DNA of 22,574 nt from a virus: IMG/VR virus record IMGVR_UViG_3300035698_006941, positions 1 to 22,574 of that record; one strand, given 5' to 3'. The translations under genes and the position numbers were made by a program. Under the pieces are notes generated by a model. The model saw only the letters and a program-made list of their open reading frames with translations. It did no database searches and had not been told where the DNA came from. Shown here piece by piece: positions 1,093-22,518 of the stretch. Every line of letters begins with the position of its first letter. Positions within the stretch are counted from its first letter, which is position 1.

Positions 1093-2318
1093 CAAAGGCT
1101 CCTAATCGATGGTGCCGCGCGCTTACGGATGAGCGGCGCGAGCGCGTATCGGATTGCGTCGATGTAGTGATTGAATGCGTCGACGATGTCGGGCAGCACG
1201 TCGCCGGATAGCCGGTCGACCTTGTACGAATAGGCGCGCATCTCGTCGGCGGTGTTGGTGCAGCGTGGGTGCACGATGATCGCGCAAAATGAACGCATGA
1301 ATTGGACGCCGTCCTCGACCGAGCCCGGCCATTTGTCGACGGCTTCGGTGCGTGGGAGGTCGTGGCGTTTTAGGTAGCTGATGCTCTCGGGACGGGCGCT
1401 GTCCCAGCGCGTGGTGTGGCGTTCGAACTGCGGAATCGCGCTGCACAGGAAAGCGGGCGTGTGATCGAGTTCGAGGCCGGTGCGCCCCGCCTCGCGTTCG
1501 ACGTACAGGCACTCGTCCTTGATCCAGCACCGCACGGCGGCGGTCGGGTCTTGACTGAATCCAAAGTCGCCGCCTTGGTACGGGCCGTCGAACGTCTTGT
1601 CGGCCTCGAACTCCTCGACACGGAACTTGTCGGCGAACACCTGCGCCTTGCTGATCCGGAGATACGCGCCCTCCCATATCCACTGGTAGGTCGCGTCGTC
1701 GAGGCGCGCTTGGTCGGCGAGGCGCAGCCGGTCAAGCTCGACCGGGAAAAACGGGTTATCGCGCCAGTTCATCTCGACGGTGAGCGTGCCGGGCATCGGA
1801 TCGACGCGGAACCGTTTGTCGACAGGCGAGCCGGGCTTGCGCGGATTCCACAGCGCCCACACTTCCGACTTCGGGCGGCGCATGACGGTCGGCAGCAGTG
1901 CCTCCCATGAGTGCTCGGGTACGTCCTCGGCTTCCTCGATCACGGTGAGATCGACCTGCGCCATCGATTTGATGGAGCCGATCGAGTGCCGCAAACCGCG
2001 AAAAAAGAACTCCGTACCGTTCGCGCCCCGGATGTACTCGGCGCCGACGTCGTAGTGCGCGGCCAAGAATGGACGCGCCTCGATCGCCGATTTCAGCTCG
2101 GCGTGAAAGCTCTCGCGGATGCTGGCCTGGAACTCGCGGGTGGTGAGTACTCGCATAGGTTCGCACCAGCCCCACACAGCGGCCATCAGGGCGGCGTTGT
2201 ACGACTTCGAGCTACCCCGGCCCCCGTGGATCGCTCTCGCCGGTACAGAGCCCCGTGGAGGGCCGAACAGTGGCACGAGCTTGGGTGGTATCTGGATGTC
2301 GACGGAGCCGTCAAGCAT
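1092..2318 (-). CDS. Phage terminase large subunit (PBSX/Terminase_3 type)
   Basis: A 408-residue packaging motor, the usual length for the family. The N-terminal ATPase carries Walker A GGRGSSKS at residues 32-39 and Walker B VIEEAE at about 126-131. The C-terminal RNase H-like nuclease shows GGDFGFSQDPTA (Asp251), WDSARPESI (Asp306) and a final acidic DAFNHYIDAIRYAL segment. It cuts concatemeric DNA and drives it through the portal. The ATG at 2318 overlaps the end of the small terminase gene by 8 bases and its own stop overlaps the portal start, so the three genes form a packaging operon. No strong ribosome site precedes the ATG, which fits translational coupling to TerS. All motifs expected of an active enzyme are present. 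Confidence 0.95.
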   Translation of the reverse strand: MLDGSVDIQIPPKLVPLFGPPRGSVPARAIHGGRGSSKSYNAALMAAVWGWCEPMRVLTTREFQASIRESFHAELKSAIEARPFLAAHYDVGAEYIRGANGTEFFFRGLRHSIGSIKSMAQVDLTVIEEAEDVPEHSWEALLPTVMRRPKSEVWALWNPRKPGSPVDKRFRVDPMPGTLTVEMNWRDNPFFPVELDRLRLADQARLDDATYQWIWEGAYLRISKAQVFADKFRVEEFEADKTFDGPYQGGDFGFSQDPTAAVRCWIKDECLYVEREAGRTGLELDHTPAFLCSAIPQFERHTTRWDSARPESISYLKRHDLPRTEAVDKWPGSVEDGVQFMRSFCAIIVHPRCTNTADEMRAYSYKVDRLSGDVLPDIVDAFNHYIDAIRYALAPLIRKRAAPSIRSL

Positions 2319-2904
2319 TAGGCGGCGCCCCCATCGCTGCGGCGACGATATTCACGACGCGGGGCTGCAGGGTGCCGTCTGGATTGTTGAGGTCGAGGCC
2401 GGCCGTTTCTTTCCACCCGGCGCGCGTCTTGAGGAAAAACGTGATTGCCTGTGTGTCGCCTTTGCGGCATTTTTGGACGAGATGCCCGACGATTTCGTTC
2501 GTCAATTCAAACATGCCGTGAGCGAGTTCTTGCGAGTAACGCGCCTTAAGCGTGCTGGCGTCGATGCCCAGCGCCATCGCGATTTTGCTGTGCGGTGTAC
2601 CCATCGTCACGGCGCGCTGCACGTACTCGCGCTCGTTGTCCTCGGGCAGATGTTCGTAGCTGCTACCCTGTGGGGCGATCGCGCCGCCCGCGTTCACCGG
2701 CATCAATCCCCGCGCTAATGCGAGTTCGTCCTTGTACTTACGTTTTAAAGTCGGGACTGAGATGGTTAACGTGCGCGCGGTTTCCGATTGAGATTTCCCG
2801 GCCGTAATCATGTCGTAGACGACTTGACGCGACTCGTCGGTCGGCGTGTGGCGTATCCCACCCCGAGCTGCGTTCGTTGCGTTGCGTGTGGCGATGTCGC
2901 CCAC
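2311..2904 (-). CDS. Phage terminase small subunit with two HTH repeats
   Basis: The protein has 197 residues when started at GTG 2904, which has an AGAGGG ribosome site 6 bases upstream. The frame is open to a GTG at 3030, but that codon lies inside the predicted -10 box and would not be transcribed. Residues 37-60 (SQSETARTLTISVPTLKRKY) and 103-126 (PHSKIAMALGIDASTLKARY) are two related helix-turn-helix units. The C-terminus contains AITFFLKTRAGWKE, typical of small terminases of this class. TerS binds the packaging site and regulates TerL. It is first in the leftward packaging operon, and its promoter carries the phage-wide operator element. Function is inferred from the C-terminal motif and the position before TerL. 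Confidence 0.85.
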   Translation of the reverse strand: MGDIATRNATNAARGGIRHTPTDESRQVVYDMITAGKSQSETARTLTISVPTLKRKYKDELALARGLMPVNAGGAIAPQGSSYEHLPEDNEREYVQRAVTMGTPHSKIAMALGIDASTLKARYSQELAHGMFELTNEIVGHLVQKCRKGDTQAITFFLKTRAGWKETAGLDLNNPDGTLQPRVVNIVAAAMGAPPNA

Positions 2905-3023
2905 GGTTGTCCCTCTTTTCGGTCTAGGCTCATCGATCGAACTGCTCGCCGTTTGCTCTCCGCTTGATGGTCTGATCGTGATCGGAGCGTCGGCTGCGGT
3001 GTTCGGTTCGGTGTGCCTAGACC
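2905..3023 (-). promoter_or_regulatory. 5' leader of the packaging operon, closed by a 9-bp inverted repeat
   Basis: GGTCTAGGC (2921-2929) and GCCTAGACC (3015-3023) are perfect complements flanking an 85-base interior. The predicted transcription start lies at about 3020, just past the -10 box. The RNA could therefore begin near one arm and be closed by the other arm a few bases before the AGAGGG ribosome site. This could modulate TerS translation or RNA stability. It is a geometric inference and no known riboswitch was recognised. Confidence 0.35.
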
Positions 3024-3026
3024 AAA

Positions 3027-3060
3027 TCACTACTCGCGTTTGGCTCTCAACGCAAGTACT
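3027..3060 (-). promoter_or_regulatory. Promoter/operator of the packaging operon (site O1)
   Basis: On the minus strand, -35 TTGCGT (3050-3055) and -10 TAGTGA (3027-3032) are separated by 17 bases. Two facing 12-base half-sites cover them: ACTACTCGCGTT (3029-3040) and AACGCAAGTACT (3049-3060), 8 bases apart. The same 12-8-12 layout occurs at 3486-3517. The arrangement suggests a dimeric repressor blocking RNA polymerase at the terminase/portal operon. Confidence 0.6.
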
Positions 3061-3543: not shown

Positions 3544-3561
3544 ATGTTCAATTTTGAACAT
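3544..3561. repeat. 18-bp palindrome ATGTTCAA-TT-TTGAACAT
   Basis: A perfect inverted repeat (8-bp arms, 2-bp centre) in the non-coding stretch. Its GTTCAA/TTGAAC core recurs at 3714-3719, 3880-3893 and 3904-3911, flanking and entering the GCGGGACGG cluster. Likely a protein-binding site associated with the candidate origin. Confidence 0.6.
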
Positions 3562-3649
3562 TTCCGCATTCGTGCCTCGCTGAGTGCTCGCGGGTGCGTG
3601 CGCCAAGTGAAGACATTTAGTCCGACTACGTCTTGTTTCGCGTACCTCC

Positions 3650-3871
3650 CCGTCCCGCATCGGTAGGGTAAACCCTATACCGATTTGCGGGACGGATGCG
3701 GGACAGGTCGATTTTTGAACGCGGGACGAACGCGGGACGGGACACCCCTGTTTTATCCTTGTATTTCAATGGTTTAACTTTCCCGTCCCGCGCGTCCCGC
3801 GTTCGTCCCGCGTTTTTGCGGGACGGGCTAAAAACAGGTTTGGGGACGGTTTGGGGACGGGCGCGGGACGG
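3650..3871. repeat. Cluster of about 12 GCGGGACGG repeats in both orientations; candidate replication origin
   Basis: Copies or near-copies of GCGGGACGG on the plus strand start at 3687, 3698, 3721, 3732, 3818, 3842, 3853 and 3863. On the minus strand, CCGTCCCGC-type copies start at 3650, 3783, 3791 and 3804. Some form hairpins. 3650-3669 pairs imperfectly with 3672-3695 around an AGGGT-AA-ACCCT centre, and 3804-3811 pairs perfectly with 3818-3825. A more AT-rich segment (about 3745-3780) lies between the sets. No convincing gene covers 3449-3921. The cluster sits directly downstream of the primase-helicase gene, so iterons of a replication origin are the best guess. A transcriptional control region is the alternative. 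Confidence 0.55.
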
Positions 3872-3872
3872 A

Positions 3873-3917
3873 GAAAACGGTTCAAATTTGAACAATGTTG
3901 AGATTTGAACCGTTTTC
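3873..3917. repeat. Perfect 15-bp inverted repeat with internal 14-bp palindrome
   Basis: GAAAACGGTTCAAAT (3873-3887) and ATTTGAACCGTTTTC (3903-3917) are exact complements 15 bases apart. Inside, GTTCAAATTTGAAC (3880-3893) is itself a perfect palindrome, so two alternative cruciforms are possible. It begins 5 bases beyond the primase stop codon. It lacks a GC-rich stem followed by a T run, so a protein site or origin element is likelier than an intrinsic terminator. Confidence 0.6.
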
Positions 3918-3921
3918 CGGG

Positions 3922-6051
3922 TTAAAATCCGCAGCCATCCGCCGTCGGATCGTCCGTAGGCGTTATGCGTCCGAGCGCGTCGGCGGGGACGTGGACAAGG
4001 CCTTTGTCCCGGAGTCGTAGCAGGGTGTTGCTCACCTGCTTTCGACGCGCGTCGTGATCATCGGCCCACACGCCTGGAGGTTCCGCGTCGACGATCGCGG
4101 ACAGTGCCTCCCGGCTGACCTCACCCTCGCCGACGATGATCGCGTACAGCGCAGCCTGCACCCCTCTGAGCTTGGTGGCGGCGGAGCCCTCGGTCTCGCC
4201 GCTGCGTGCCTCGGTCTCCTCGAACACGAGGCTCGACGCCTCGCCCGAACCGACCTCAGTCGCTTTGAACCACTTATCGGGCGGCTCAGCCGCGTCCTTC
4301 ATCTTTGTACAGACCATCTTGACCAGCCCCGAGTCCTCCCGGTCGAGCCGGTGTGCGCTGTCAAGCGCCCCGTGGATGGCTGAGGCGCCCCGCACGCGTT
4401 CTTTATGCTGCGTGCCGGTGTGGTGGATGATGAGCCCGGCGCAGCCGTAACGATTCTGCACGTCCGCCGCGTTCGACATAACGGCCATCATGTCCGTGTT
4501 GCTGTTCTCGTCGGCAGTGTTGTTGCGGGCGAGCGTATCGAACACGACCAGCCCGAGGCCGCCGAACCGCTTTGCGAACTCGTCCAACACGGGCAACACC
4601 GCCTTGATGGCCTCGCGGTCCGAGAGGTTAACCGGCCCCGAGGTAAAACCCAGGGGGACGGCGTGCGCGAGGCCGTGGTGCTGGCGCCATGCGGCCGCCC
4701 GAGCGCGCAGGCCGTGCCGCCCCTCGCCTGCTACATAAACGACGGCGCTCTGCTTGACCGGCCGCCCGTGCCACTCCCGGCCCGAGGCGATGTGATACGC
4801 CATGTCGACCGCGATGAAGGACTTATAGGAGCCGGGGTCGCCGTACAGCGCGGAGGACTCACCCCGCACCACATAGCCGTCAACCAACCAATCAGGCGGC
4901 GAGAAGTCTGCCGAGAACGCGTCCTCGTCTTCGATCGAGAACGCGGCGCGCTTTGGTTTGGTGGTCGGCGCATCTTCGACGACGCCGAAGTCGGTCGTGC
5001 CGTCCGCTGTCGGATCATAGTCCGGGTACCGGTATTCCCCGGCGTTAATCCAGTGTTGTAGTGTGCGGAGCGTGGCCTTGCGCCCGCCCCCGTTGCCTCG
5101 TTTGGCCCGTTCCCACCGAGCACGGAACCCGGCCGCGTGCCACTTGGCGCCCGCTTTTGCCCACTCTAAGAGTATCTCGCGACAGGCGTTCGACCCGTCG
5201 AACTCATCGCAGGCCGCCTTGATGACGACGTCGAACTTGTCGCCCTCCATGTCCGGGTCGAGCTTGGTCAACATCTCGCGCAGATCATCGAGCGACGCCC
5301 CGAACTTCGGCTCGACGAGGAATGTGTCCTCGGGGTCACGGTCCGGCTGCGGTGAGTCGCTTGACGGCGCGGACCTGTCCTTTTTGGGCCGATGCGGCAC
5401 CAACTCAGGCGTGGCGGCTGCGATCCGGTTGAACTCCTCCGCGATCAAAACGCAATGCTCACGGGTGATCAGGGGCAGGTCCGCCCGATCGACGTCTGCG
5501 AGTTCCGGCCCGTCGTAAGTGTACGCCACCTTGGTCTCGGGGTGAGTCGCGTAGGCGACAAACTGCCGACCCTCGCCGGACATAAACTCCACGCTCTGCT
5601 CGTCCAGGCTCAGATCATCCGGGTCGACCCACTTCGCCGTCGGCGGGTGCGCGATCGTGTCGTCGCACCGGTAGACGAGTATGACGCGAGGCGCGCGGCC
5701 TATCCGCCGCACACCCCGGCCGAGCAAGTCCTCGACGAAGCGGATCATGTGGGCGACGACGGACGGATGGCTTATGTCAAGGTCGACGCCGCACACGCCG
5801 CGCCCGAACACGCCGACCCCGGTGATCTGTGGATCATCTATCCAGTTCAGCACCTGTTGGTGACTTGACGGATCGCCCCGCGCCGCCCGGTCCGCGTCGT
5901 GTCTCAGCGCAACTTGATCGGTCTGCCATTTGCCTCGGACGGGGTACTTGTGCCCGGTCACAATCGAGGTGATGTCGTACCCCCGCGCGAGCAGCCGGTG
6001 CCCGTGCGATGCCATAAAGTCCGGGTACGTCGTTTCGGGGGTGTCTTTCAT
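3922..6051 (-). CDS. Fused primase-polymerase and RepA-like replicative helicase
   Basis: A 709-residue replication protein. Residues about 10-215 form a bifunctional primase/polymerase (archaeo-eukaryotic primase) domain with GVDLDI (Asp90, Asp92) and a downstream EFMSGEGRQFVAYATHPET block. Residues about 285-340 (WAKAGAKWHAAGFRARWERA) resemble a PriCT linker. Residues about 385-600 are a RecA-fold helicase of the AAA_25/RepA type, with Walker A GDPGSYKS at 404-411, Walker B LVVFDTL at 501-507, and IIHHTG and RGASAI motifs. A C-terminal winged-helix-like segment follows. It probably unwinds and primes phage DNA at the adjacent repeat cluster. The frame is open to GTG 6141, but that codon abuts the -10 box, so ATG 6051 is preferred. 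A short upstream ORF with a ribosome site overlaps this ATG. Confidence 0.92.
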   Translation of the reverse strand: MKDTPETTYPDFMASHGHRLLARGYDITSIVTGHKYPVRGKWQTDQVALRHDADRAARGDPSSHQQVLNWIDDPQITGVGVFGRGVCGVDLDISHPSVVAHMIRFVEDLLGRGVRRIGRAPRVILVYRCDDTIAHPPTAKWVDPDDLSLDEQSVEFMSGEGRQFVAYATHPETKVAYTYDGPELADVDRADLPLITREHCVLIAEEFNRIAAATPELVPHRPKKDRSAPSSDSPQPDRDPEDTFLVEPKFGASLDDLREMLTKLDPDMEGDKFDVVIKAACDEFDGSNACREILLEWAKAGAKWHAAGFRARWERAKRGNGGGRKATLRTLQHWINAGEYRYPDYDPTADGTTDFGVVEDAPTTKPKRAAFSIEDEDAFSADFSPPDWLVDGYVVRGESSALYGDPGSYKSFIAVDMAYHIASGREWHGRPVKQSAVVYVAGEGRHGLRARAAAWRQHHGLAHAVPLGFTSGPVNLSDREAIKAVLPVLDEFAKRFGGLGLVVFDTLARNNTADENSNTDMMAVMSNAADVQNRYGCAGLIIHHTGTQHKERVRGASAIHGALDSAHRLDREDSGLVKMVCTKMKDAAEPPDKWFKATEVGSGEASSLVFEETEARSGETEGSAATKLRGVQAALYAIIVGEGEVSREALSAIVDAEPPGVWADDHDARRKQVSNTLLRLRDKGLVHVPADALGRITPTDDPTADGCGF

Positions 6052-6083
6052 CGGCCGCACCGGGGTGTGTTTGTTCTGTCCAC
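6048..6083 (-). CDS. Possible 11-codon leader ORF coupled to the primase start
   Basis: GTG at 6083 has an AAAGGTGA ribosome site about 5 bases upstream and encodes an 11-residue peptide starting VDRTNTPRCGR. Its TGA overlaps the primase ATG (ATGA). The primase ATG itself has only a weak ribosome site, so ribosomes delivered by the leader could re-initiate on it. No product function is implied. The codons may be no more than the ribosome path. Confidence 0.35.
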   Translation of the reverse strand: MDRTNTPRCGR

Positions 6084-6141
6084 GGATCACCTTTCTGTGA
6101 GGGGGTTCGGGGGTGAGCGCGGTCCCGCGCCCGAACTGCAC

Positions 6142-9323: not shown

Positions 9324-10061
9324 ATGGCCAAACAACGACCAGCGACACAATCCAACCGGCAGGCGGGCGAGGATGAACCGGCGACCCGGCTCGTCCGTGC
9401 TCGGATCGCGGCCGGGTATGACACGATGGAGTCTGCGGCGAAGGCGCTCGACGTTCCGACGTCAACCTACTCCCAGCACGAGTGCGGCGTGCGCGGGCTC
9501 AAGTTCGCGGCCGAGCGGTACGCGGCGGCGTTCGGCGTGACCAAGTCGTGGCTCCTGTACGGCACCGACCGCCCACCCGTCCCGCGCCGCGTCGTGAGCG
9601 TGCAGGCGGACCCCGACCCGATCGAGCTGGCCGAGTACCGGGGCGCCGACCCAGGGCGCGAGGGACCAGCGGGCGGCGTTAGTGTATGGGTCGAGCACCT
9701 GCCCGGCACGGACAGCGCAGACACGGCCGCCCCGTTCTCTGAGGCGTTTCTTTCCCGGCTTGGGCTGTCCGTGCAGTCTGCCGCCCTCGTAGCGATCGAC
9801 AAGACGACCGCCACGGCGGACCTGCGCCCCGGCGACACGGTGCTACTCGACACGGACGACGACGAGCCGGTGACGCGCGGCGTGTACGTGTTCCGGGCCA
9901 GCACAGGCCAGTTGGCTATCCGCGCCATCGATCCTCTGATCGGCACCGACCCACCCGAGGTCCGGATCAGCGTCGACGGCCCGGACGGTCACGCTTACGG
10001 CGTGCGGCGCAAAAGCATCCACGTGCTCGGGCGCGTGCGTTGGATCGGCCGTGTGATCTGA
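9324..10061 (+). CDS. CI-like phage repressor (XRE HTH plus S24-like fold lacking the catalytic dyad)
   Basis: 245 residues. Residues about 22-80 form an XRE-type helix-turn-helix (RIAAGYDTMESAAKALDVPT-STYSQHECG), ending in the WLLYGTD segment common in phage repressors. The C-terminal half (about 150-245) follows the LexA/CI S24 fold: GDTVLLDTD at 171-179, GVYVFRASTGQLAIRAI at 187-203, and the closing HVLGRVRWIGRVI. The Ser of the usual GDSMEP motif is replaced in an IDKTTATADLRPGD stretch, and the Lys of the VKRL motif is Arg (AIRAI). Autocleavage therefore looks impossible, and the domain may serve only for dimerisation. Its promoter carries the shared operator, which suggests autoregulation. 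It is probably the maintenance repressor. Confidence 0.85.
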   Translation: MAKQRPATQSNRQAGEDEPATRLVRARIAAGYDTMESAAKALDVPTSTYSQHECGVRGLKFAAERYAAAFGVTKSWLLYGTDRPPVPRRVVSVQADPDPIELAEYRGADPGREGPAGGVSVWVEHLPGTDSADTAAPFSEAFLSRLGLSVQSAALVAIDKTTATADLRPGDTVLLDTDDDEPVTRGVYVFRASTGQLAIRAIDPLIGTDPPEVRISVDGPDGHAYGVRRKSIHVLGRVRWIGRVI

Positions 10062-12947: not shown

Positions 12948-13490
12948 ATGCCTGATCATATTTTTATAAAGAATGCGCGCGTCTCCTACCCGCACCTATT
13001 CAAGCAGCCCATCATCAATGGCGAGCTTGCCAAGTGCGGCGCGACGCTGCTGCTCGAACCGGGGCACCCGGCGATCGCCAAGATCAACGCGGAGATCGTG
13101 CGGCTCCAGCGCGAGAAGTTCGACGGCTTGAAGCTGCCTGCGTCTAAGCTGTGTATGCGCAGCGGCGAAGAACGCATGAAGCCAGAATACGGCGACGCGA
13201 TGGGTGTGTCGGCTAACTCGAAAGGCTTCCCGCACGTTGTCGCCGGGGACGGTCGGACGACGATCAAGGACGCCGTCGACTGCAAAATCTACGCAGGCTG
13301 CTACGTCAACGCAAAGATCGCGCTATGGCCGCAGGATAACAAGCACGGCAAGCGGATTAACGCCGAGTTGATCGCAATCCAGTTTGCGGGCGACGGTGAA
13401 CCGCTCGACGACAGCTACGTCTCCGAGGACGAAGCCCTGGACGGCTTCGCCGCCAGTGACGCGCGCGTCGACGAGCCGGTCGATTTCTAA
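12948..13490 (+). CDS. Phage single-stranded DNA-binding protein, DUF2815 (Enc34 type)
   Basis: 180 residues from ATG 12948 with a GAAAGGACT ribosome site. The N-terminus IKNARVSYPHLFKQP and the later CKIYAGCYVNAKIALWPQDNK stretch are characteristic of the DUF2815 family, whose Enc34 phage member is an OB-fold ssDNA-binding protein. The acidic C-terminal tail (ending DEPVDF) resembles the protein-interaction tails of SSBs. It follows DUF2800 and precedes the polymerase gene, the standard order in this class of phages. It should coat ssDNA at forks and resected ends. Confidence 0.88.
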   Translation: MPDHIFIKNARVSYPHLFKQPIINGELAKCGATLLLEPGHPAIAKINAEIVRLQREKFDGLKLPASKLCMRSGEERMKPEYGDAMGVSANSKGFPHVVAGDGRTTIKDAVDCKIYAGCYVNAKIALWPQDNKHGKRINAELIAIQFAGDGEPLDDSYVSEDEALDGFAASDARVDEPVDF

Positions 13491-13535: not shown

Positions 13536-13763
13536 ATGCCGCAACCCCCATTCGACTCCGTAGTAGTGACCGTCGACAGCGGCCGTCGCGGTGCGCTCGA
13601 CGGGACCATCACCGTCACACAAACGAACCACATCTTCCGTTGGCGCCAAGCCGGAACCGACCCTTATGTGCTCTCGCACGACAGCATCGTGATGGGAACC
13701 TACAGCACCGTATCGGCCATGCGCCAAGGCGTTCTCGGCTTGGTACGGACGGAGGTCGTCTAG
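13536..13763 (+). CDS. Hypothetical phage protein, 75 aa
   Basis: ATG 13536 has a CGAGGG ribosome site. The 75-residue product is beta-rich (PFDSVVVTVDSGRRGALDGTITVTQTNHIFRW) and unrecognised. Its TAG overlaps the GTG start of the DNA polymerase (TAGTG), so it may serve to couple polymerase translation. No catalytic motif is visible. Confidence 0.6.
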   Translation: MPQPPFDSVVVTVDSGRRGALDGTITVTQTNHIFRWRQAGTDPYVLSHDSIVMGTYSTVSAMRQGVLGLVRTEVV

Positions 13764-16006
13764 TGCCGACCCTTTGGGCAGACACCGAGACGTTTAACGT
13801 GCACGACCTAAAGGCGGGCGCGTACCGTTACGCGGAGACGGCGGAGCTGCTGCTGTTCCCGTATGCGCTCGACGACGGCCCCGTCCGTCTGTGGGACGCG
13901 GTGACGTGCGAGCTGTTGGACTGCGCTCTTCTACCAGACGGCGACGTCGTGTTCTCGTGCGCCGATCTCGCGATAGAGATGCCCGACGACCTGCGTGCCG
14001 CGCTCGACGATGACGCGACGCTGCTCGTGTTCCACAACGCGTCGTTCGATCGCCAGATACTCGCCCAGGTGCTCGGCATCCGCCCCCGCCTGGAGCGGTT
14101 CCGGTGCACGATGGTTCAGGCTCTGTCGCACGCGTACCCCGGCGCGCTGGGATCGCTCGGCCCGCTGCTCGGGTTGCCGCTCAACAAGGCCAAGAACACG
14201 GACGGCAAGAAGCTTATAAACCGCTTCTGCAAGCCTGCACCCCGCAACCACAAGGCCGACCGCTACACACCCGAGTCGCACCCCGAGGAGTGGCACCGCT
14301 TCCGGGTGTACGCGGTTCGTGACGTGCTCGCGATGCGCGAAGTGTCAGAGCGTTTGCCCAACTGGAACTGGCAACCGCGCGACGTCGCGCTGTGGCATCT
14401 CGACCAACGGATCAACGACCGAGGAATGCAGATCGACCGCGAGCTGTGTGCCGCTGGCGCGAAGGCCGCCGTCGCCGAGAAGGCCCGGCTCGCCGCTGAG
14501 TTCGTCGCGATCGTGAACGAGTACCAGTCGATTGACTGCCCGATGCCGACCGCGCCATCGCAGCGCGAGGCGTTCCGTCTGTATCTCAATCACCGGTTCA
14601 GTCTCGACCTGGACAACACGCGGAAAGACACCTTTCAGCCTCTGCTTGATGGCGACACGATCGAGCCCGAGTGTCGGCGCTTGATGGAGATTGCGCTGCT
14701 CAACAACAAAACGTCGACGAGCAAATACGCGGCGCTCCTGCCTGCGATCCAAGACGACGGCCGTTTCCGTGGCGGGTTGCAGTTCCGAGGCGCCGCACGC
14801 ACGCGGCGTTACGCCGGGCGGTTGTTCCAGCCGCAGAACTTGCCCTCGCGCGGACTACCACCGCAGGCGGCGATAGATCAATATATCGCAGCGCTCAAGT
14901 GCGACACGCACGACCTGCTGTTCGACGACCTCATGTTGTACGGCTCGGCCGCGCTGCGCGCCGTCGTGACCGCGCGTCCGGGCAAACGGTTGGCGGTCGC
15001 CGACCTATCGAATATCGAAGGCCGCCTCGTTGCGTGGCTGGCTGACGAGACGTGGAAGCTCGACGCGTTTCGCGCGTTCGACGCGGGCACCGGCCCTGAT
15101 CTCTACATGCTCACCGCGACCGCGATCGTCGGCGGCGATCCGTGGGACAAGCGGCGCACGATCCCCGGCCGCCAAGACAAGGTCCGCGACGTGTTCGGGA
15201 AGGTTCCCGACCTCTTTGGGGGGTACGAGGGCGGGTACGGCGCCGCGCGCACGTTCGCGAAAAACTCCGGGCTGCAGACACCTGACGGCCGCGCCCTATC
15301 GAACTACATGGACACGATCCTCGATAACGCGGACGCGGAGCTTGTCTCCTCGGCTCGCGCCAACTGGACCAAGTGGGGACAAGAGCGCGAGCCCGACGCC
15401 GACCCCGAGGAGTGGCTTGCGTGCGAGGTTGTCAAGCTCGCCTGGAGGCGGCGCCACCCGGCAACCGTCAAGCTGTGGGGGTTACTCAAGGAAGCCGCCG
15501 TCCGTGCCGTCCAGAACCCCGGCAAGGCGTACAAGGCGGGACAGTGGCTCACGTTCGCGGTGCGCCGACATGCGGGCATCGCGTACCTGCTCTGCAAACT
15601 CCCGAGCGGCGCGGTGCTCTGCTACTGCGACCCGCGCGTGCACCACGACGACCCAACCGGTGACGCCATGCGCGAGACCGACGTGCGCAAGCTCGCCATC
15701 ACGTACATGGGCACGCAAGCCGGGCTCACGGGCGGCGACTATGGCCCCTGGACCCGCATCCACACCTACGGCGGCAAGTTGCTGGAGAACGCGGCACAGA
15801 CCATCGCGCTCGATGTGATGATGCACGGCATCCCGCTGATCGAGGCGGACGGGTACGGGATCGTCCTGTCTGTGCACGACGAGCTGATCGCCGAGGGCGT
15901 CGACCACGAGCGCATGGCCGCACACATGGCGACCGTCCCCGCCTGGGCGCCGGGCCTACCGCTCGCCGCCGAGGGCTTCACGACAACCGTTTACCGGAAA
16001 GGATAG
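13763..16006 (+). CDS. PolA-family phage DNA polymerase with 3'-5' exonuclease
   Basis: 747 residues from GTG 13763, which overlaps the preceding stop. The exonuclease domain has WADTET (Asp7, Glu9), FHNASFD (Asp96) and YAVRD (Tyr183, Asp187). The polymerase domain has motif A AVADLSNIEGR (Asp414, Glu419), motif B RDVFGKVPDLFGGYEGGYGA (Arg475, Lys480, Tyr488) and motif C SVHDEL (His-Asp-Glu at 705-707). It also has the RGGLQFRGAARTRRYAG segment typical of phage enzymes. No 5'-3' exonuclease domain is present. It is the replicative polymerase for this phage, with SSB, nucleases and helicase in the same operon. All catalytic residues are present. Confidence 0.95.
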   Translation: MPTLWADTETFNVHDLKAGAYRYAETAELLLFPYALDDGPVRLWDAVTCELLDCALLPDGDVVFSCADLAIEMPDDLRAALDDDATLLVFHNASFDRQILAQVLGIRPRLERFRCTMVQALSHAYPGALGSLGPLLGLPLNKAKNTDGKKLINRFCKPAPRNHKADRYTPESHPEEWHRFRVYAVRDVLAMREVSERLPNWNWQPRDVALWHLDQRINDRGMQIDRELCAAGAKAAVAEKARLAAEFVAIVNEYQSIDCPMPTAPSQREAFRLYLNHRFSLDLDNTRKDTFQPLLDGDTIEPECRRLMEIALLNNKTSTSKYAALLPAIQDDGRFRGGLQFRGAARTRRYAGRLFQPQNLPSRGLPPQAAIDQYIAALKCDTHDLLFDDLMLYGSAALRAVVTARPGKRLAVADLSNIEGRLVAWLADETWKLDAFRAFDAGTGPDLYMLTATAIVGGDPWDKRRTIPGRQDKVRDVFGKVPDLFGGYEGGYGAARTFAKNSGLQTPDGRALSNYMDTILDNADAELVSSARANWTKWGQEREPDADPEEWLACEVVKLAWRRRHPATVKLWGLLKEAAVRAVQNPGKAYKAGQWLTFAVRRHAGIAYLLCKLPSGAVLCYCDPRVHHDDPTGDAMRETDVRKLAITYMGTQAGLTGGDYGPWTRIHTYGGKLLENAAQTIALDVMMHGIPLIEADGYGIVLSVHDELIAEGVDHERMAAHMATVPAWAPGLPLAAEGFTTTVYRKG

Positions 16007-20575: not shown

Positions 20576-21121
20576 CTATGTTCTTCGACCGGGCCGAGCG
20601 TTACGCGGTATCGCGCCACCCTTCCGATCCTTGTGATTAAAATGCCGGTACAGCGTCGAGTATGCCATACCGCTCTCACGCTCGATTTCGGCGGCGGTTG
20701 CATCGGACAGCCACAAATCGCGCCATTGCTCTTTGTCCGTCGAGCCGTAACCGCCCGCCGCGCCACCCTTAGCGCCGCTTGCTGCTCGTTCGTCGGGGTC
20801 CGTGTCATTGCGTGCGGTTAAGATGCCAACCACTAGCGTATCTATGCAGTCTGGCGGTACGTCGTGATTATCTGCTGCGATATAGATGCCCGCGCCACGC
20901 GCCTGCACCATACGGCAGATGTCGGCGCGCTCACGGTATGACGCCGATAGATCGTGTAGCGTAGCCACAACGAGGCGGTCACCGCGTCGCAGCAATTTAA
21001 TGGCGTCAGGTAGTACCGCGCATTCAATGTCCACAATCAATTGATCCGTCACGCCGATTGCGTCGCGCTGTGCGCGCTCGGTATTCTGGCGTCGTGGCCG
21101 GATGTAACCTAATCTGTTCAT
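20576..21121 (-). CDS. Resolvase-like DNA-binding protein lacking catalytic residues
   Basis: 181 residues from ATG 21121. The N-terminal about 100 residues follow the serine-recombinase fold: LGYIRPRRQNTERAQRDAI, then LLRRGDRLVVATLHDLSASYRERADICRMVQARGAGIYI. The catalytic Ser of the usual YxRVS motif is replaced (RPR, Arg10), and the LDRLGRS arginines are missing (LHDLSAS at 55-61). A Gly/Ala hinge (about 113-128) leads to a C-terminal helix-turn-helix (TAAEIERESGMAYSTLYRHF). It should still bind DNA but not cut it, so a transcriptional or structural role is likelier than recombination. Palindromes just upstream could be its own operator. Confidence 0.8.
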   Translation of the reverse strand: MNRLGYIRPRRQNTERAQRDAIGVTDQLIVDIECAVLPDAIKLLRRGDRLVVATLHDLSASYRERADICRMVQARGAGIYIAADNHDVPPDCIDTLVVGILTARNDTDPDERAASGAKGGAAGGYGSTDKEQWRDLWLSDATAAEIERESGMAYSTLYRHFNHKDRKGGAIPRNARPGRRT

Positions 21122-22020: not shown

Positions 22021-22518
22021 CTATTCCGACAGCCACACGGGCACATCGAACGCCGCCCGCGCCACCCACTCAGCTAGTACGCTGAGCGGGTAGCCTTCGC
22101 CGTATGCGGGCTTGCGCGAGGCGTGCCCCATAAGTGCGTCCATGATCTCCTCGGGGCACTGTGCGGCCCGCAGGCGGTCTTTAAACGTATGACGTAGCGA
22201 GTAGAGCGAGTGTGCAGGCGTGGGCAGTAGGCTGTTCTCCGCTAGGTACGCCCCGAGCGCCGTCGTCAGTTGGTTGTGCTTGCGGGCGTACCGCACCGGC
22301 CCGTCCGGCATCGAGCGCATAGCGGCCAGCGCACTACCACACAGCGGCACGCGCCGCGCTGATCCCTTAGTCTTGAGCCCGTCCGTCAACGCCAGATGCG
22401 GCACCGGATCGTCGATCTCGATATTCTCGCGCCGTAAGAACGCGACCTCGATCGTCCGCAGCGCGGACAGTAAGATGAGGGGATTATCTGACGTGAGCCA
22501 AGATGGATTTTTTGGAAG
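22021..22518 (-). pseudogene. Tyrosine recombinase (integrase) catalytic domain, N-terminus missing
   Basis: The minus frame is open from TAG 22021-22023 to about 22518, where TGA (22519-22521) ends it upstream. It encodes a tyrosine-integrase catalytic domain: DNPLILLSALRTIEVAFLRR (Arg I), LKTKGSARRVPL (Lys), YSLRHTFKDRL (box II Arg), ALMGHASRKPAYGEGYPL (His and Tyr). This resembles the Burkholderia/Pseudomonas-type phage integrases. About 180 N-terminal residues (arm-binding and core-binding domains) are absent, and no good start codon exists in the open part. At about 22500 the composition turns AT-rich. Either the gene is truncated at a junction or the assembly is chimeric. As it stands it could not be a complete integrase. 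Confidence 0.8.

Follow-up and report, generated by a model that had tools for sequence, protein, structure and literature searches.

Between the gene of a primase-helicase and a block of packaging and structural genes in the window (the whole stretch of viral DNA analysed here, 22,574 nucleotides) lies a short segment crowded with copies of one word, and the question is what this segment does for the phage. The original prediction, made from the sequence alone, took it for a replication origin with about 12 repeats next to the primase-helicase gene. We find that the GGGAC cluster is very likely a replication origin, all of the support being computational, and the whole mechanism, with the primase-helicase as the initiator acting on this cluster, appears probable.

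Layout of the repeat cluster

Thirteen GGGAC/GTCCC cores are found in the 222 bp from 3650 to 3871, where shuffles of the segment (n = 300) give at most 4 and shuffles of the whole window at most 6 per 222 bp. The predicted number of repeats thus holds for the GGGAC core only and not for GCGGGACGG, of which this segment contains 5 exact copies and 5 with one mismatch. The positions of the cores bear out that the repeats occur in both orientations. On one strand, the distance between neighbouring cores is mostly 11 bp, and the blocks are opposed, with five plus-strand cores followed by an AT-rich gap, three minus-strand cores and four further plus-strand cores. The gap between the repeat sets is indeed richer in AT, as had been noticed, and perfect 22-nt arms (3718-3739/3793-3814) enclose 53 nt that include it. 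The hairpins were likewise recovered (I4, 3649-3664/3692-3707, and 3804-3825), and the folding of the cluster strand is much stronger than that of shuffled sequences (z -8.0). The features of the segment are as follows.

3641-3871, no strand: 13 GGGAC/GTCCC iteron cores arranged as opposed blocks, the proposed origin of replication (repeat counts and class-wide position test)
3689-3743, plus strand: left GGGAC iteron block, cores at 3689, 3700, 3723, 3734 and 3739 (core count)
3718-3814, no strand: 22-nt perfect inverted repeat around the AT-rich gap (inverted-repeat search, folding)
3742-3783, no strand: AT-rich gap (64% AT), candidate DNA unwinding element (composition; AT excess in the largest gap of relatives)
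3785-3809, minus strand: right GTCCC block, cores at 3785, 3794 and 3805 (core count)
3820-3869, plus strand: helicase-proximal GGGAC block, cores at 3820, 3843, 3854 and 3865 (core count)
3873-3917, no strand: 22-nt hairpin with TTTGAAC/GTTCAAA, separating the iterons from the helicase stop codon, non-canonical as a terminator (inverted-repeat search)

The cluster does lie beside the primase-helicase gene, on the 3' side of this minus-strand gene, the last iteron being at 3871 and the stop codon at 3922. The region from 3640 to 3921 is bounded by this stop codon and by a leftward block comprising a 111-aa ORF, a TerS candidate, a Terminase_3 TerL and the portal. The sole ORF over the cluster is a mechanical 89-aa ORF, and no long ORF of a known family is present there. 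A search of the region against Rfam gave no match, no DNA-level similarity to phages and plasmids was found, and no promoter-like match was detected at the cluster. GC skew near the cluster shows a peak rather than a dip; it is confounded by gene direction and uninformative for an origin. Another word, TTTGAAC, occurs in 5 copies around the cluster (3553-3910), including the hairpin at 3873-3917, and in 7 copies in the window versus 1.65 expected.

The primase-helicase and its predicted winged-helix tail

Two features of the neighbouring gene matter for its proposed role as initiator.

3922-6141, minus strand: primase-helicase, primase-like N-terminus and RecA-fold RSF1010 RepA-like helicase, residues ~404-630 (domain search, PHROG, AlphaFold2, Foldseek)
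3922-4251, minus strand: C-terminal winged-helix region of the primase-helicase, proposed iteron reader (predicted fold; covariation in relatives)

The protein comprises 739 amino acids and contains an AAA_25 domain (PF13481, E 1e-40). RepA, the hexameric helicase of plasmid RSF1010, is its closest solved relative in both sequence (1g8y, E 4e-4) and fold (best Foldseek matches, E 3e-11), and the RecA-fold domain of this helicase family is present. The AlphaFold2 model (mean pLDDT 81) consists of a mixed alpha/beta N-terminus, a helical linker, a RecA-like core and a small C-terminal domain. PHROG matches and the Prim-Pol or Toprim domains of relatives are the basis for calling the N-terminal part primase-like. 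A separate model of the last 109 residues has three helices and a wing, with a core pLDDT near 90, and resembles the winged-helix repressors MecI, BlaI and MarR (probability near 1, TM about 0.5); because the E values are just 0.03-0.2, the predicted likeness is at the level of the fold only. Searching viral contigs with this single protein returned no relatives. IncQ/RSF1010-type replicons have a separate iteron-binding protein, RepC, and a separate primase, RepB'. Among the larger ORFs scanned in the window, which is a partial genome, no match to a RepC-like family was obtained, and helicase and primase-like domain are joined in one protein.

Repeat clusters in helicase relatives

A search by repeat word recovered dozens of phages with similar bidirectional GGGAC clusters, whereas a narrow triple-repeat pattern matched 4 contigs only. 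In most of the motif-selected phages, the cluster begins where a primase-helicase gene, of the DUF5906/D5, VapE or Toprim kind, ends. Because this first sample had been picked by motif, relatives were sampled again through the helicase protein only, ignoring the repeat. Among the RepA-like helicases, a significant cluster of short repeats was detected within 560 bp at the stop codon in 44 of 73 loci, versus 11 of 584 control windows drawn from the same loci (Mann-Whitney p=8e-27); the query profile contained one motif-selected phage (L294) beside others picked by protein. After removal of redundancy, the fractions are 33/52 for RepA-like, 17/33 for VapE-like and 47/64 for D5-like loci, the VapE and D5 profiles having been built from motif-selected phages, a few close relatives of which remain in these two samples. 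The fraction of loci with a cluster peaks sharply at the helicase stop codon and amounts to about 0-7% for windows lying over 500 bp from it. In about 40% of the RepA-like relatives no cluster was detected by the test, which scores exact 5-mers and misses degenerate iterons.

The original prediction had named conservation in related phages as one check on the origin. This comparison was run, and the origin reading survived it: relatives picked by their helicase carry clusters at the stop codon far above background, and relatives picked by their terminase do not. Universality of the word GGGAC, which the motif-selected loci had suggested, is not borne out; in the motif-blind samples it is one phage-specific word among many, which include GGACA, GGGAC, CGCAC, GTCAC, TCACA, CCTAC, CTCCC, ACCCT and others. 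GGAC-core words are the commonest RepA-like type (8/33), and in two phages found by protein only, MW202867 and Salicola phage CGphi29, a GGGAC cluster immediately follows the gene of the RepA-like helicase on its 3' side. The repeated words of relatives mostly occur in both orientations, the spacing of same-strand iterons peaks at 9-10 bp in the RepA-like, VapE and D5 families, and the largest gap within the cluster is AT-rich relative to the genome in the three families (p=0.0033, 1.5e-5 and 3.5e-11).

Repeat word and helicase tail

If the helicase recognizes the repeats through its tail, both might be expected to vary together. Covariation was assessed by partial Mantel tests controlled for whole-protein identity, taking only DNA beyond the stop codon and omitting the last 20 residues. 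Similarity of the repeat word correlated with identity of residues 21-80 from the C-terminus in the RepA-like (partial r 0.30, p=0.001) and D5 (partial r 0.30, p=0.001) families, and in the VapE family with partial r 0.20 (p=0.06). No correlation was found with other parts of the helicase, including the adjacent residues 80-130. This suggests that the last ~80 residues read the repeats. Covariation could in part come from physical linkage of the 3' end of the gene with the adjacent DNA, but residues 80-130 give no such signal. It is tempting to speculate on a general rule for temperate phages, according to which primase-helicases of three or more unrelated types (RepA-like with RecA fold, VapE and D5) each initiate at phage-specific short iterons right after their own gene, with tail and word coevolving as lock and key. 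We regard this rule as slightly more probable than not.

Alternative functions of the cluster

Terminase genes lie 0.6-2.5 kb from the cluster, with TerS (2311-3030), TerL and the portal just beyond, and many phages start packaging near terS. The repeats might thus be binding sites of the small terminase subunit, that is, a pac or cosB site. However, among 50 loci selected by TerL similarity, a GGGAC cluster within 2 kb upstream was found in 0/50 and any cluster in 3/50. The strongest of these, in L057 (GGACA), belongs to a phage that also has a RepA-like helicase, and another cluster lies inside terS. Since the TerL loci are mostly devoid of clusters, the cluster follows the helicase and not the terminase; moreover, the stop-codon clusters in the three helicase families accompany different terminase families. 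We consider a packaging site very unlikely and rejected it, given that the repeats are not tied to terminase genes across the 50 TerL relatives. Even less probable is an operator array, at which a repressor or activator would control the packaging and structural genes of the left operon or else the terminal part of the primase operon. Such a role would suit the opposed short sites, which lie close to where a leftward operon begins, and phage regulators with arrays of short sites are known, but gene starts in the window are already marked by a separate motif, CGCGAGTA (13 copies versus 1.35 expected), the cluster has no promoter-like match, and its class-wide position goes with the helicase gene and not with a regulator.

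The strong fold of the cluster strand (z -8) raises the possibility that the cruciforms or hairpins matter as such and the repeat sequence is incidental. In pRN1, a stem-loop downstream of the replication gene is needed, and specific binding was not found there (PMC4234260). Retention of a repeated word in relatives, at 9-10 bp spacing and mostly in both orientations, and the tracking of this word with the helicase tail speak against a purely structural element, which we rate lower again. Least probable of all is a parS-like partition site or other segregation element placed by the replication gene. Its precedent is the parS loci of mycobacteriophages, which are clusters of 8-bp direct repeats, one of them downstream of repA (PMC7157519). 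However, no window protein scanned matched a ParA or ParB family, the phage seems to integrate, judging from recombinase-like ORFs at the right end of the window, and an origin accounts better than a partition site for opposed blocks with an AT-rich gap between them.

Comparison with known origins

Judged by sequence, the proposed origin is laid out like those known or proposed for Sfi21, SaPIs, SCCmec and pRN1. In the GenBank record of Streptococcus phage Sfi21, 302 bp immediately 3' of the primase gene are annotated as 'origin of replication'; in these we find GTAAC and GTTAC, the repeat in its two orientations, surrounding an AT-rich core. Like the window, Sfi21 thus has a non-coding origin directly 3' of a primase-helicase gene and short two-orientation repeats flanking an AT-rich core; unlike the window, it has a D5/DUF5906 helicase, an AT-rich genome and another repeat word. 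Satellite phage P4 (ori/crr) is similar in that primase, helicase and winged helix are joined in one protein, its helicase and primase are of other types, and its repeat word differs from GGGAC. In this P4 alpha protein, the winged helix binds short repeats (PMC4234260). In SaPI Rep and SCCmec Cch2, C-terminal domains read short iterons just downstream of their own genes, the Cch2 word being AAGTG (PMC7581432). In these systems, as in the window, short iterons follow immediately after the gene of the initiator helicase. The systems differ in the type of helicase, Cch2 being discussed with the D5 family, whereas the window, from a Caudoviricetes phage, combines a RecA-fold RSF1010 RepA-like helicase fused to a primase-like domain with the word GGGAC.

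RSF1010 oriV resembles the proposed origin in its RepA helicase fold and its iterons. Its iterons are bound by a separate protein, RepC (PMC4234260), whereas the window helicase has its own predicted winged helix and no RepC-like gene was found among the larger ORFs. Replication of pRN1 requires a stem-loop just downstream of the primase-helicase gene, and the authors of that study suggested the same for BPP-1-like phages (PMC4234260). In pRN1 and in the BPP-1/BIP-1 proposal, too, the primase-helicase carries a winged helix at its C-terminus and its gene is closely followed by the replication element (PMC4234260); pRN1 differs from the window in its SF3 helicase and in having a single large stem-loop, with no iterons. 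Set beside the origins of Sfi21, SaPIs, SCCmec and pRN1, the window shows a variation on a known layout, with a RepA-type RecA-fold helicase in place of their helicases and with GGGAC iterons. In the open-access literature, to which the search was confined, we found no description of GGGAC/GTCCC origins, of a class-wide position rule or of covariation between tail and word. A VarioGold literature match for GGGAC/GTCCC was attachment-site text and was discarded.

Proposed mechanism of initiation

Iteron origins of the SaPI and Sfi21 type are recognized by repeats beyond chance, a position just downstream of the helicase gene and an AT-rich region between the blocks, all of which are found here, and recognition of the iterons by the C-terminal domain of the helicase is suggested by the predicted winged helix and by the covariation, seen in relatives, that involves the final ~80 residues. 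The steps of initiation that follow go further than position, composition and covariation and are inferred from the systems named above. The primase-helicase would bind the GGGAC iterons via its C-terminal winged-helix domain, and one or more hexamers might assemble on the opposed blocks and melt the AT-rich gap between them. The RecA-fold helicase ring would then be loaded, followed by priming by the N-terminal primase. Forks might be extended by the phage DNA polymerase (13640-16006) together with the Enc34-like single-strand-binding protein (12948-13490).

To our knowledge, the origins of most temperate phages are unmapped. If the tight positional rule is true, sequence alone would suffice to locate the origins of many viral genomes, small phage replicons would become available for vectors, and the evolution of initiator specificity, a long-standing question, would be open to a direct test by swaps of tails and iterons. 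A code linking tail and word, if true, would perhaps also make incompatibility between phages predictable from sequence.

Other repeat arrays and motifs

Several further arrays were noted in the sampled loci. In the D5 sample, CTCCC, ACCCT and AGGGA are the dominant words in L498-L577; their spacing is very sharply set at 9 bp (123 neighbour pairs), and they form another recurrent iteron class. Six D5-type loci (L210, L225, L295, L308, L316 and L317) have GGGAC arms around a centre with GTAAC/GTTAC, which is the Sfi21 origin word; two iteron types are nested there. Bordetella phage BPP-1, a laboratory phage for which a stem-loop origin has been proposed elsewhere, also has a candidate origin: at 11000-11140 of L328, AACGAGGCAA is repeated in both orientations in the interval that separates the D5-type primase gene from the terminase genes. 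The terS gene of one TerL relative (L013, 7358-8008) contains 10 GCGAA words in 250 bp, possibly a pac-like array within the gene. A short GTCCC-repeat match near the ends of PQ189294, PQ189324, PQ189328 and similar 8-13 kb Vibrio phage records may be due to chance (E about 3).

In the window itself, the copies of CGCGAGTA lie mostly at gene starts (2624, 3031, 3488, 3508, 6146, 6158, 8355, 8446, 9271, 10383, 10460, 10511 and 19524) and twice form inverted pairs (3488/3508 and 6146/6158). They are probably operators of the CI-like repressor encoded at 9324-10061. Translations read by eye revealed a resolvase-like ORF at 20576-21121 and, at 22021-22404, a fragment similar to the C-terminal part of a tyrosine recombinase.
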